This document shows positions 12,003 to 47,447 of a DNA stretch of 48,027 bases, piece by piece. The translations under genes and the position numbers were made by a program. Position 1 is the stretch's first letter, and each line of letters starts with the position of its first letter. Source of the DNA: a virus; the IMG/VR virus record IMGVR_UViG_3300032236_000715, positions 1 to 48,027 of that record; one strand, given 5' to 3'. The notes under the pieces are model-generated. The model was not told the DNA's origin and did no database searches. It was given only the letters and a program-made list of their open reading frames with translations.

Positions 12003-13010
12003 ATGCAAATTAGAGACATTTCAAAGCCAATCACTAGCAAACAGCTTAACGAAAGCCTTGCTAAGAACTTTGGCTACAAATTAAACTTAGAACAGTTTAC
12101 AACAGAACAACTATGTGACGCACAAAATAAATTGCGTACAAAAATTAGCCAGTTTGAAGTTAGCGAAAGCTACGAAGGTATGCAAAAGAATGTATCGTAC
12201 CAAAAAACTCGTGCTATGTTAGATTGCGTTAATCAGGCAATTTTAGAACGTGAAATGAACGAAGGCGCAAAACCTGACTTCCTAGATATGGACAAAGACG
12301 GGAACAAGAAAGAAGCTATGAAAAAGGCAATCAAAGACAAAAAGAAAAACAAGTCAGTAGAAGAAAATTACGTTAATGCTACATTCCGTTCTCGTGCAAG
12401 TCAATATTCAGTTCCAATGAGCTGGATTGACAATGCTATTCAAAGAGTTGAATTAGGCGAAAGCGATCGCAGAGAATTAAAGGCTGAACTATTAACTCGT
12501 TACGATTTAAATGAATCACAGGCTAGCTATGTATTGCTAGAAGGCGAAGAAGAAAAAGCTGAAAACATTATGGCCAGTAAGGATATGGTTGAACGTATCA
12601 CTGGTTGGTTAGAAGATACTGCTCAATTAAAAGCTGAACAGCTTTTAGAATTATTAGACTCTATAAGAGAAACACAAGGCAGTGATGTTGCTCAACAATA
12701 CCAAGATGCAGTTAAGCCTGCACTTGAATCATTATATGCCGCATTAGAACAAAGCCGTCAAGGCTTATCACAAGGCCTAGCACTATTATCAGGCGGTGAG
12801 GCTGCTCAATCAATGGGCTCAGGCGCTCCAAGCACTCCTTCAGTTCCAGGTGCTGAACCAGGAATGGGCGCACCAGGTGAAGAAGAAGCAGGTGCTGAAG
12901 CAGGAGAAGAAGAAGTTCCTCCACCAGAAGGCGCAGTAGGCAGAGAAAAGCGTGAAAGCGTAGACTACAGTCGTCGTTTAGGCATGCTACTTAACTCAAA
13001 AAAAAAGTAA
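12003..13010 (+). CDS. Probable virion morphogenesis protein, zero-frame product of a candidate -1 frameshift gene
   Basis: 335 residues. The N-terminal helical region (about 1-90) is followed by an EF-hand-like acidic loop (DFLDMDKDGNKKEAMKKA, about 93-110). A helical middle follows (LGESDRRELKAELLTRYDL), and then a Gly/Ala/Glu/Pro-rich flexible segment (about 262-310). The end is Lys-rich. It comes from a late promoter, which suggests a virion or scaffold role, but the family is not certain. The last codons are an A AAA AAG heptamer at 13001-13007 immediately before TAA. A 112-codon open -1 frame without a start codon follows (13007-13345). Slippage there would give a 447-residue product. 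Confidence 0.6.
   Translation: MQIRDISKPITSKQLNESLAKNFGYKLNLEQFTTEQLCDAQNKLRTKISQFEVSESYEGMQKNVSYQKTRAMLDCVNQAILEREMNEGAKPDFLDMDKDGNKKEAMKKAIKDKKKNKSVEENYVNATFRSRASQYSVPMSWIDNAIQRVELGESDRRELKAELLTRYDLNESQASYVLLEGEEEKAENIMASKDMVERITGWLEDTAQLKAEQLLELLDSIRETQGSDVAQQYQDAVKPALESLYAALEQSRQGLSQGLALLSGGEAAQSMGSGAPSTPSVPGAEPGMGAPGEEEAGAEAGEEEVPPPEGAVGREKRESVDYSRRLGMLLNSKKK
13001..13007 (+). promoter_or_regulatory. Candidate -1 ribosomal frameshift heptamer A AAA AAG
   Basis: The zero frame reads TCA AAA AAA AAG TAA. The heptamer A AAA AAG is the one used in E. coli dnaX. A perfect seven-pair stem (13037-13043 with 13052-13058, eight-base loop) follows after 29 bases, farther than a classical stimulator. 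The alternative is an undercalled 10-A homopolymer. Confidence 0.6.
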
Positions 13011-13345
13011 TTCAAACAATACGTGAATCAGTAGACCCCTTAGTTTTAACACTAAGGGCTCTACAATCCGCGGCCAACGATCAACACTCTGAAGCCCAAT
13101 TAACTTGGGATGCAATTAATCATGCAGGACAAAACTACGGTGCTCCTGACATTGACTATGATCGTTTTGCACAACGATTTGACACAGATCCAATTATCAA
13201 ACAACTAGTACAACGTTTTGACGGCCACGGTGTTGTTATCAAAACAGATAAGAAAGAACCAAAGCCAGGGCAAGGCGAACCAGTAGGTAAAAGTATGAAA
13301 GCTGGTGCCGCAATGGCCGCAACAAAACGAACAGATAAGGCTTGA
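13007..13345 (+). CDS. -1-frame C-terminal extension of the 12003 gene
   Basis: This open -1 frame encodes 112 residues and ends at TGA 13343-13345. It has no ATG, GTG or TTG until close to its end, so it cannot be made from its own start. The sequence is protein-like: DPLVLTLRALQSAANDQHSE, INHAGQNYGAPDIDYDRFAQ, then RFDGHGVVIK and a basic Gly/Pro/Lys tail (KEPKPGQGEPVGKSMKAG). It lies in a stretch otherwise empty of genes. The best reading is a frameshifted fusion domain. A homopolymer error in one continuous gene is the main alternative. Confidence 0.65.
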   Translation, partial: VIQTIRESVDPLVLTLRALQSAANDQHSEAQLTWDAINHAGQNYGAPDIDYDRFAQRFDTDPIIKQLVQRFDGHGVVIKTDKKEPKPGQGEPVGKSMKAGAAMAATKRTDKA

Positions 13346-13385
13346 CAACATAAGGTCATATAGTTTAATATACTGTATGACCTTA
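13342..13385 (+). promoter_or_regulatory. Sigma70-like promoter with a perfect 10-base inverted repeat
   Basis: TTGACA (13342-13347) is followed after 18 bases by TAATAT (13366-13371). TAAGGTCATA (13351-13360) and TATGACCTTA (13376-13385) are perfect reverse complements. The second arm contains the ATG of the nuclease gene (13377). The repeat could be an operator, or an RNA hairpin over the start if transcription begins upstream. Confidence 0.5.
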
Positions 13386-14093
13386 TTAACTGAAAGATAT
13401 AACTATACTCCTTTAAACAGAGAAAGTGTAGAAGGTAAGCGTTTATACGCAACACCAGACGGGAACAAGCTCCCAAGCGTCACAACAATCCTAGACAAGA
13501 CCAAGCCATTTGAAAAGGTACAAGCCTTAATGAATTGGAAAAAGGCTGTTGGCGAAAAGAAAGCACAAGAGATCGTTACTGAAGCGGCTAGTCGTGGAAC
13601 TAGGATGCACAAGTACATTGAAGACTACATTGTGCAAGGTACACTGAATGATCCTGGAACAAATCCATACTCGGTACAAAGCCACAAGATGGCTAAACAC
13701 ATTATTGAACATGGACTTAAAAATGTCAATGAAGTATGGGGTGTAGAAGTAGGCTTGTACTACCCTGGATTATATGCTGGCAGTACAGACTGTGTGGGCG
13801 TACATTTAAATGATCCAGCAATCATGGACCATAAGCAAACTAATAAGCCTAAAAAAGAAGAGTGGATCGAAGATTATTACTTACAAATGACTGCTTATGC
13901 TCTAGCACACAATGAAGTACATAAAACTAATATCCGCAAGGGCGTAGTGTTTATGTGCGTAAAACCGCCTGAAATTAAGCCTATGGTGTGGGGAGAACCC
14001 GCATATCAGGAGTTTATCCTAAAACCTGAAGATTTCGATTACTGGGAAAAACGCTGGTGGGATAGGGTGGAACAATACTACAGAGAGAACTGA
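13377..14093 (+). CDS. PD-(D/E)XK (RecB/Cas4-like) nuclease
   Basis: 238 residues from ATG 13377; a start 24 codons earlier would read through promoter-like sequence. Visible motifs are the helix with ASRGTRMHKYIEDYI (His motif I, about 73-87), GVEVGLYYPGLYAGSTDCVG (Asp of motif II), and AIMDHKQTNKPKKEEWIEDYYLQMTAYALAHN (DxK and the QxxxY motif, about 155-186). This is the RecB/Cas4-like exonuclease arrangement without iron-sulphur cysteines. It probably takes part in phage DNA recombination or host DNA degradation. A tail-spike gene follows. Confidence 0.75.
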   Translation: MTLLTERYNYTPLNRESVEGKRLYATPDGNKLPSVTTILDKTKPFEKVQALMNWKKAVGEKKAQEIVTEAASRGTRMHKYIEDYIVQGTLNDPGTNPYSVQSHKMAKHIIEHGLKNVNEVWGVEVGLYYPGLYAGSTDCVGVHLNDPAIMDHKQTNKPKKEEWIEDYYLQMTAYALAHNEVHKTNIRKGVVFMCVKPPEIKPMVWGEPAYQEFILKPEDFDYWEKRWWDRVEQYYREN

Positions 14094-24769: not shown

Positions 24770-26023
24770 ATGATATTAGCGTATCTACTACTATTAACAG
24801 GTTTAACAATATCGGCGGTCGCAATTTACTACTCTGTAGTAGGTTTGACCGCTATATTTTCCGCGGCGGCAATCCCTATTATTATTATGGGGTCAGCCCT
24901 TGAAGTAGGCAAACTAGTATGCGCCTCTTGGTTAAAAGCTAACTGGGAGAAAGCTCCTAAGTTCATGAAGTACTATATGACTATTGCAGTCATAGTATTG
25001 ATGCTCATTACCTCAATGGGTATCTTCGGATTCCTCTCCAAAGCACACAACGATCAAACACTAGTAAGTGGTGACGTTGGCAGTAAGATTGCAATATATG
25101 ACGAAAAAATCAAAACTGCAAAAGACAATATTGAAGCCGACCGTAAACAACTTAAACAGATGGATGAAGCTGTTGACCAAATCATGGGTCGAAGTACAGA
25201 TGAAAAGGGTGCGGACAAAGCAAATGCTGTGCGTAAATCACAACAACGTGACCGTCAGGCGCTTGCCAAAGACATCGAAGCCAACCAGAAAATTGTTGCA
25301 CAACTTAATGACGAAGCCGCACCTATCCGTGCAGAAGTACGCAAGGTCGAAGCTGAGGTAGGGCCGATAAAATACATCGCGGCATTTATCTACGGAACCT
25401 CGCCAGACGAGTCAATGTTAGAAAGAGCAGTTACCTGGATCATCATCTTAATTGTTGTTGTGTTTGATCCATTAGCGGTTATTATGTTGCTAGCCGCACA
25501 AATGACATTTGCATGGACTAAAGAACAAAAAGAAAATAATTGGATTGATGAACAAGTAGACGACTTGAACAATTCTGCCTTCGTTGCCGATGTTGGCGAA
25601 AAACCTATACTAGAAGAAAAAGCAGAAATAGAAAAAGAGTTTGAAGGTGTTCGTGTTCCTGGTGGCGAATGGATACAGACAGGTCCTGAAATTGAATCTA
25701 CACAACCAGCAGTTGATTATCATTTTGTTGAAGAATTCCATGAAGAAGATCCACCGCCACTAACTGCTGATAGTACTACATCTATTGTAGAACCTGAAAT
25801 TCCAATGCCTATTGAACAATGGAATAAGATGATTGAAGAAGCAGAAAAAGCCGCAGAAGAATCTGCGATGGCTGACCGTTTGGCAAAAGGTGAAACATAT
25901 ATAGATGGAGAAGGAAAAGAGACTCCAACGGAACCAGTATACTCAGAAGAAGACGGTTCAAAAAAAAAGACTTATATGATCAAGGATCCGACAGGACAGA
26001 TACAAACAAAGACGAGGGAGTAA
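24770..26023 (+). CDS. Large membrane protein with coiled coil, zero-frame product of a second candidate -1 frameshift gene
   Basis: 417 residues. Three N-terminal membrane segments are clear (YLLLLTGLTISAVAIYY, AIPIIIMGSALEVG, YYMTIAVIVLMLITSMGIF). A coiled-coil loop follows (about 97-195, with DEKIKTAKDNIEADRKQ), then two more spans (WIIILIVVVFDPLAVIMLL). An acidic cytoplasmic tail follows. Proteins of this form are conserved in T4-like marine phages. At codon 400 lies TCA AAA AAA AAG, the same slippery tract as in the 12003 gene. The zero frame continues 17 residues (TYMIKDPTGQIQTKTRE) to TAA. The -1 frame stays open for 108 codons, giving 508 residues. Confidence 0.65.
   Translation: MILAYLLLLTGLTISAVAIYYSVVGLTAIFSAAAIPIIIMGSALEVGKLVCASWLKANWEKAPKFMKYYMTIAVIVLMLITSMGIFGFLSKAHNDQTLVSGDVGSKIAIYDEKIKTAKDNIEADRKQLKQMDEAVDQIMGRSTDEKGADKANAVRKSQQRDRQALAKDIEANQKIVAQLNDEAAPIRAEVRKVEAEVGPIKYIAAFIYGTSPDESMLERAVTWIIILIVVVFDPLAVIMLLAAQMTFAWTKEQKENNWIDEQVDDLNNSAFVADVGEKPILEEKAEIEKEFEGVRVPGGEWIQTGPEIESTQPAVDYHFVEEFHEEDPPPLTADSTTSIVEPEIPMPIEQWNKMIEEAEKAAEESAMADRLAKGETYIDGEGKETPTEPVYSEEDGSKKKTYMIKDPTGQIQTKTRE
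25963..25969 (+). promoter_or_regulatory. Candidate -1 ribosomal frameshift heptamer A AAA AAG
   Basis: Nine As (25960-25968) are followed by G. The zero frame reads TCA AAA AAA AAG, identical in register to 12998-13007. Only a weak GATC-AAG-GATC hairpin is seen downstream. Frame change nearer the zero-frame stop, or an undercalled homopolymer, are alternatives. Confidence 0.55.
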
Positions 26024-26295
26024 TTGGCTACGTACAAAATGCAGAACAAAATCAAAATAGCCTGTGGGCAAGAATACAAGGTATAAAACCAATAGACAGC
26101 TTACATAAGGAATACTCAGAAAATAAATTTGCAGATTTTGAAGTAGATCCGCAAATTGATCAAGAACTATTTAATTTTGTAAAAGAAACTAGAGTACATG
26201 GTCCTAGATTTGACGATTATCCTGAAAAAAAATTAAAATCTTTTGAAGAGCGTATACATGAACTTAGGAAAAATAACACTAATAACTCCGCCTGA
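25969..26295 (+). CDS. -1-frame C-terminal extension of the 24770 gene
   Basis: This open frame encodes 108 residues to TGA 26293-26295. It has no ATG, GTG or TTG before its last part, so it needs a frame change to be made. The sequence is clearly protein-like: GYVQNAEQNQNSLWARIQG, then FVKETRVHGPRFDDY and KSFEERIHELRKN. It fills a 220-base stretch that otherwise has no gene, and its end overlaps the start of the next gene (26258). Confidence 0.6.
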   Translation, partial: DLYDQGSDRTDTNKDEGVIGYVQNAEQNQNSLWARIQGIKPIDSLHKEYSENKFADFEVDPQIDQELFNFVKETRVHGPRFDDYPEKKLKSFEERIHELRKNNTNNSA

Positions 26296-46220: not shown

Positions 46221-46289
46221 ATGGCAAGAAAAATTGCAGAACGCAGAATGAAGCAAGCCGCAATGCGAGCTACTAAAAAGAAGCGTTAA
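46221..46289 (+). CDS. 22-residue basic micropeptide, second of a tandem pair
   Basis: ATG 46221, five bases after the previous stop. MARKIAERRMKQAAMRATKK, then KR. The shared ending AMRAT-[R/K]-KKR suggests duplication. The tmRNA acceptor piece begins within about 15 bases of its stop. Confidence 0.45.
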   Translation: MARKIAERRMKQAAMRATKKKR

Positions 46290-46299
46290 TTAAAGAATT

Positions 46300-46361
46300 G
46301 TTGTAACTCCTTCAAAGCGAAGGAATCTCGGACGTGGGTTCGACTCCCACCAGGTCCACCA
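46300..46361 (+). ncRNA. ssrA: tmRNA acceptor piece of a circularly permuted gene
   Basis: The piece ends GTGGG-TTCGACT-CCCAC (T arm), CAGGTCC (acceptor 3' strand), A and CCA at 46359-46361. CAGGTCC pairs with GGGCCTG at 46432, six Watson-Crick pairs and one G-U. The 5' end of the piece is approximate. AATCTCGGACGTGGGTTCGA is close to the conserved bacterial tmRNA 3' region. In one-piece genes this segment lies at the 3' end; here it comes first. Confidence 0.85.
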
Positions 46362-46431
46362 TAAAGTACATTAGCCAACACCCAACATACCGGGATAGTA
46401 AGATGGCATTGCCGCTAGTGTACTTCATAAT
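46362..46431 (+). ncRNA. tmRNA intervening segment, removed during maturation
   Basis: AAGTACATTAGC (46364-46375) pairs with GCTAGTGTACTT (46414-46425), twelve pairs with one U-G. This joins the CCA end to the 5' end of the coding piece, as in known two-piece tmRNA precursors. Confidence 0.7.
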
Positions 46432-46640
46432 GGGCCTGCCATGGTTTCGACGGGGTTAGATAGTAGAGACGGCAACACGAGAGGCGATGGACGTAATCCA
46501 AGCAAATAACGTAAATGCAAAAGCAAATACATTCGAGTTTTTCCAAGTTCCAGTTAGCATCAGTGCTAATGACGAATTTGCACTAGCTGCCTAAGAAACA
46601 GCACTCGCGAGGAAGGAAAGTCCTTGTCACCTAACTTACC
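46432..46640 (+). ncRNA. ssrA: tmRNA coding piece with tag ANDEFALAA
   Basis: It starts GGGCCTG, followed by a D-arm-like TTCGACGGGG. The resume codon is GCT at 46565, preceded by ATCAGT. The tag reads Ala-Asn-Asp-Glu-Phe-Ala-Leu-Ala-Ala and ends at TAA 46592-46594. The ALAA end is that recognised by ClpXP/ClpAP in bacteria. The tag is closest to betaproteobacterial tags (ANDERFALAA-like, from memory). The 3' end is approximate; a terminator follows directly. tmRNA frees stalled ribosomes and marks the nascent chain for proteolysis. Confidence 0.85.
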
Positions 46641-47371: not shown

Positions 47372-47447
47372 GCGCTATTAGCTTAGTGGTAGAGCCGGAG
47401 CTTCTAAACCTCTTGTGTCGTGGGTTCGATTCCCACATAGCGCACCA
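47372..47447 (+). tRNA. tRNA with CCA encoded; anticodon reads best as CUA (amber), Arg-UCU is the alternative
   Basis: A perfect seven-pair acceptor stem (GCGCTAT/ATAGCGC) and T stem (GTGGG/CCCAC) with loop TTCGATT are seen, with CCA encoded at 47445-47447. D-stem GCTT/GAGC. The anticodon stem is GGAGC/CCTCT: four pairs (one G-U) with a C-C mismatch next to the loop. With a seven-base loop TTCTAAA the anticodon is CTA at 47404-47406, which would read UAG. Setting the loop one base earlier (CTTCTAA) gives UCU for Arg, but then the stem has only two good pairs. Confidence 0.8.

Follow-up and report, generated by a model that had tools for sequence, protein, structure and literature searches.

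Programmed -1 frameshifting is known in phage structural genes, as in G/GT of phage lambda, where a -1 shift near the end of a morphogenesis gene gives a minority protein extended at its C-terminus. In Escherichia coli dnaX (tau/gamma), the heptamer A_AAA_AAG and a downstream hairpin give two products from one start. Thermus dnaX and the Shigella type III system instead use transcriptional slippage, in which an A run of about nine leads to an extended product; the run of Thermus dnaX is A9 (PMC3711429). The A2 head protein is another frameshifted phage structural gene cited in PMC10885494. The locus described here shares the heptamer, a downstream hairpin and two predicted products with E. coli dnaX, but its frameshift would yield the longer product and its tract is A9 rather than A6G. 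With the slippage systems it shares the length of the A run and a predicted extended product. The likeness to lambda G/GT lies in the place of the shift and in the predicted minority extended protein; no sequence relation to it was found.

The window is a stretch of 48,027 nucleotides of viral DNA (IMG/VR record IMGVR_UViG_3300032236_000715, positions 1 to 48,027). The gene under study, gene 1, and its surroundings comprise the following features.

12003..13010, + strand: gene 1, 0-frame product of 335 aa, helical, probably virion-associated (profile family A3; remote match to PHROG 14154)
12998..13007, + strand: slippery tract A9G (A9, 12998-13006; G, 13007)
13001-13007, + strand: heptamer A_AAA_AAG in the ribosomal register, with an overlapping A_AAA_AAA just before it (12998-13004)
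13008..13010, + strand: 0-frame stop TAA, immediately 3' of the A9G tract
13007..13345, + strand: -1 extension of gene 1, 112 codons (13007-13342) plus TGA (13343-13345), predicted winged-helix-like domain
13031..13064, + strand: RNA stem-loop of 5+8 bp, 23 nt past the end of the heptamer
13377..14093, + strand: PD-(D/E)XK exonuclease-like gene, next after the gene 1/extension pair

The junction reads ...CTT AAC TCA AAA AAA AAG TAA TTC..., and the gene end TCA AAA AAA AAG TAA given in the original prediction is exact, as read at 12998-13010. The claim that the -1 frame is open for 112 codons, start-less and protein-like was also confirmed: the translated 112-aa extension looks like protein, and ATG, GTG and TTG are absent from its first 20 codons in the window. 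Upstream of the extension, the -1 frame is shut by TAA at 12992-12994, so that no start is possible further upstream. The joined product would be 447 aa long.

Relatives were collected by scanning IMG/VR with gene 1 and with the extension, and the removal of duplicates left 71 distinct junctions. The tract had at least nine A's (A9 or A10) at all 71 homologous gene 1 junctions, each with A_AAA_AAG/A/C in the 0-frame register. Most junctions were TCA-A9G-TAA (56); TCA-A10-TAA occurred in six, TCA-A9C-TAA in four and GGA-A9G-GTT-TAA in two, together with single ACA or CCA variants. The 0-frame stop adjoined the tract in 69 of the 71 and stood one codon further in two. Two contigs from bacterial genome records carried A9G followed by TCC TAG or TCA TAG. 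A scan for the pattern returned 20 contigs, 19 of which held the gene 1/extension pair. The -1 extension was present at every one of the 71 junctions as a single family of about 100-122 codons. Of 155 pairs compared, the 40 closest ones shown had an extension dN/dS of approximately 0.04-0.4. A joined frame in homologues had been named as a point to check; the gene 1 junctions instead kept split frames.

The codons at the junction were equally constrained. The wobble A before the tract was invariant across Ser, Pro, Thr and Gly codons; all 66 Ser codons at the tract were TCA, whereas these genes use TCA for 32% of their Ser residues. The chance of the all-TCA result was about 3e-9 for 17 thinned sequences, a value to be taken as a guide only because the sequences share ancestry and the residue there is not Ser in a few of the 17. 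Across 1,164 further genes from these phages, runs of at least nine A's were seen 4 times against 72 expected from synonymous shuffles, a ratio of 0.06, so that the occurrence of such a run at all gene 1 junctions is far beyond chance.

These data also bear on the chief caveat of the original prediction, that the nine-A run might be a sequencing error. A nine-base homopolymer within a metagenomic record is open to the suspicion of sequencing or assembly error, or of a decayed gene, and in one relative of a second gene described below (L196), A10 is accompanied by a continuous frame. However, the frame relation is identical at the 71 distinct junctions with three tract endings (A9G, A10-TAA and A9C), which excludes sequencing error, and purifying selection acts on both sides of the tract. 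The 0-frame stop is conserved as well, so that a simple missed A does not explain the gene 1 junction. We therefore give this explanation a negligible probability. Judged by sequence comparison, gene 1 is very probably a programmed two-product gene of jumbo-like phages, its signal being kept in more than 70 relatives, and the conserved tract, stop and start-less extension uphold the claim of two products of 335 and 447 residues. The fusion would very probably be made by a programmed -1 event, either ribosomal or transcriptional.

The extension might instead be an independent gene whose translation begins by termination-reinitiation from a weak start codon, for instance an ATT overlapping TAA. 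The arrangement in more distant relatives lends some weight to this view. In most of the more distant relatives among L029-L059 each part is a gene of its own, the two being linked by ATGA, by TAATG or by a close spacing, and the Pseudomonas phage PA5oct and the Salicola phage SCTP-2 also have separate genes. GTA ATG is retained at three slip-type loci (L117, L126 and L165). On the other hand, 62 of the 71 junctions have no ATG, GTG or TTG between the upstream -1 stop and codon 5 of the extension, about a third of them have AAT, ACT, AGT, ACC or ACA as the second codon, and the invariant A9 tract would be superfluous. Reinitiation thus seems highly improbable at the slip-type junctions.

The coupled relatives appear to record how the junction arose. 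The gene 1 extension is homologous to their separate downstream protein (hhalign probability 99.5, E 9e-23). A tree of 87 proteins grouped the slip-type rows in a single clade (branch support 94/99), outside which fell the two-gene type; the branches leading to PA5oct and SCTP-2, on the opposite side, were very long, and the root was weakly placed. On the simplest history, the slippery junction apparently arose once and took the place of the downstream gene's start codon, and the frameshift arrangement would supersede an older one in which the extension was its own gene with an overlapping ATG start. Both the start point of this switch (two coupled genes) and its end point (a frameshift fusion) are visible and deeply sampled.

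A coupled relative led to two distant homologues of gene 1, PA5oct gp247 and SCTP-2 gp8. The pairs gp247-gp246 and gp8-gp7 occupy the same place before an exonuclease gene as the gene 1/extension pair, the exonuclease gene lying downstream in SCTP-2 and one gene further on in PA5oct. Unlike the window phage, both phages have two genes without a slippery tract. gp247 is annotated as a virion structural protein, and the PA5oct record bears an ESI-MS/MS mark for both it and gp246. Neither PA5oct gp246 nor SCTP-2 gp7 showed significant homology to the gene 1 extension, and hence it is position alone that supports a virion role for the extension.

We next considered whether the ribosome or the polymerase slips. 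If ribosomes do, most translation would stop at TAA and give the 335-aa protein, while a minority of ribosomes, moving back by one base at either A_AAA_AAG or the A_AAA_AAA that overlaps it, would read 112 codons more; the resulting 447-aa protein would carry a further small domain. The original prediction had identified A AAA AAG as the strong heptamer of E. coli dnaX; in agreement, the final Lys codon was AAG in 58 of 65 cases, compared with an AAG usage of 34%. In the 1,164 other genes, A6G occurred at 0.26 of expectation in the ribosomal register and at 0.89 and 0.41 in the other registers (0.41 from few sites), and A6C at 0.29 in the ribosomal register and at 0.93 and 0.80 in the others. 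This register-dependent avoidance points to ribosomes slipping on these heptamers; the lowered A6G in one non-ribosomal register tells against that reading.

The RNA downstream was found to be structured. Compared with dinucleotide shuffles, the 55 nt past the junction folded far more readily (mean z -3.4 and -3.0); control windows were mostly at z of about 0 to -0.4, and the +60 window was at -1.3. The stem was kept while its sequence changed (CCCTTAG/CTAAGGG, CCGTTAG/CTAACGG and CCATTAG/CTAATGG), and the share of paired cells was 0.72. Column shuffles gave 0.665, with 0.683 as the highest of 500, and sliding lowered the share to 0.29-0.46. Arg in the 3' arm of the hairpin was encoded by AGG in 32 of 36 rows, versus 4 of 1149 in the gene body. 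The selected hairpin was present at about 70% of gene 1 sites and weak or missing in approximately 15-20 of the 71, about 30% lacking a strong one; its spacing was 1-30 nt, often longer than usual for -1 stimulators. It probably stimulates the slip in most lineages. One subclade of the two-gene relatives is also structured here, moderately (z about -2.4), and the hairpin may therefore have another role. In contrast to E. coli dnaX, hairpin spacing is variable and a Shine-Dalgarno-like stimulator upstream of the tract is lacking, none being found in 69 of the 71 gene 1 junctions; not every -1 frameshift site needs one, but its lack weighs against the ribosomal reading.

Alternatively, RNA polymerase could add one A at A9 in a programmed manner, so that some mRNAs carry A10 with the fusion in frame. 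The length of the tract accords with this mechanism: a run of at least nine is invariant in gene 1 although the heptamer needs just six A's and a G, and the ninth A, for which A_AAA_AAG has no need, counts against the ribosomal reading. Elsewhere in the 1,164 genes, A8 runs fell to 0.18 of expectation in total and A7 was depleted in all registers. The depletion of A8 and of longer runs regardless of frame points to slippage by polymerase or during replication. In addition, the +1 frame is shut within 3 codons at 75% of junctions compared with 40% expected, as would be the case if indels of both signs occur. Polymerase slippage does not, however, account for the dependence of A6G/A6C avoidance on register or for the preference of AAG over AAA as the last codon. 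The selected hairpin lies downstream, in RNA that the polymerase has not yet made, and a clear upstream hairpin was not found. The hairpin with its AGG bias and the register-dependent avoidance, together with the AAG ending, set this locus apart from Thermus dnaX and Shigella type III and favour ribosomes. We regard transcriptional slippage as possible but rather unlikely, and ribosomal -1 frameshifting at TCA-AAA-AAA-AAG-TAA as the probable source of the gene 1 fusion, where we infer the ribosomal nature, the efficiency and the virion role.

The same tract occurs a second time in the window, in a gene termed gene 2.

24770..26023, + strand: gene 2, 417 aa, membrane/coiled-coil-like, an open reading frame with TCA AAA AAA AAG at 25958-25969
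25960..25969, + strand: second A9G tract, with the 0-frame stop 17 codons downstream
25969..26295, + strand: -1 extension of gene 2, 108 codons

Gene 2 has no evident sequence relation to gene 1, and its site is an internal replicate of the finding. Among 45 gene 2 sites in relatives, 42 were A9G and three A8G. The prevalence of A9 and the lack of downstream structure in gene 2 sites as a group are in line with transcriptional slippage, whereas the three sites with only A8 are not. The gene 2 extension is conserved in relatives (...YVQN-EQ...) and shorter in some, at about 37-41 codons; the frame is continuous over the homologous extension in L196 (A10), L220 and L242 (shorter). A single genome would slip at two genes, and the case lends itself as a natural test between the ribosomal and the transcriptional mechanism. 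Taken together, the phage group may have turned two coupled virion genes into one frameshifted gene, trading a start codon for A9, with the identical A9G in a second, unrelated gene; a single rate of slippage, by ribosome, polymerase or both, would then govern two product ratios at once. We put the chances of this wider picture at about even. Novel here are the gene family and phage group, the two sites per genome and the visible switch from two genes; no earlier report of gene 1 was found in the literature searched. Over 100 codons in two conserved proteins of this widely sampled phage group would escape gene callers.

In four relatives of gene 2 (L218, L223, L224 and L229), the region past the conserved N-terminal part gives way to a different C-terminal domain (...GDMWLRTDRLPSALYKFNGN...). 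In a seemingly unrelated gene of another viral contig (L265:818-840), the same motif TCAAAAAAAAAGTAATT is accompanied by a -1 frame of 79 codons.

The function of gene 1 was examined by database and structure searches. Gene 1 matched PHROG 14154 (virion structural protein) remotely, with an E value of 1e-6. Its AlphaFold model was all-helical (mean pLDDT 71; pTM 0.31, low), with an acidic low-confidence stretch near the C-terminus, and a BFVD search returned mostly uncharacterised phage proteins. The AlphaFold2 model of the extension had a moderate mean pLDDT of 70.6; a fold search of the PDB gave weak matches throughout, many of them winged-helix domains, and the extension is predicted to be a small winged-helix-like domain. 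Sequence searches of the PDB gave no match. When gene 1 and the extension were compared directly with isolate phages, tblastn found nothing, a short motif at most being shared with cyanophages; alignment A1 was too variable as a search query.

The gene had been likened to frameshifted morphogenesis genes such as the tail and scaffold genes of other phages. A link to the virion is supported through the distant homologue found in virions, but a chaperone role like that of lambda G/GT is not. A chaperone of the lambda type would be absent from the finished virion; gp247 was detected in PA5oct virions, which speaks against such a role through a homologue. The gene pair is followed by exonuclease, tail-spike-like and ribonucleotide reductase genes, with no adjoining tape measure gene, and gene order and the virion homologue together speak against a tail assembly chaperone. 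Most likely, the arrangement would hold plain and extended subunits of a virion-associated protein at a fixed ratio within the particle.

Two RNA genes were identified elsewhere in the window. A permuted tmRNA of betaproteobacterial type lies at 46261-46594 (Rfam RF01850, 114 bits; RF04321, 132 bits), with the tag ANDEFALAA, and its type suggests that the phage host is betaproteobacterial. A tRNA with the anticodon CUA, a possible amber suppressor, lies at 47372-47447 (Rfam tRNA, 57.7 bits).
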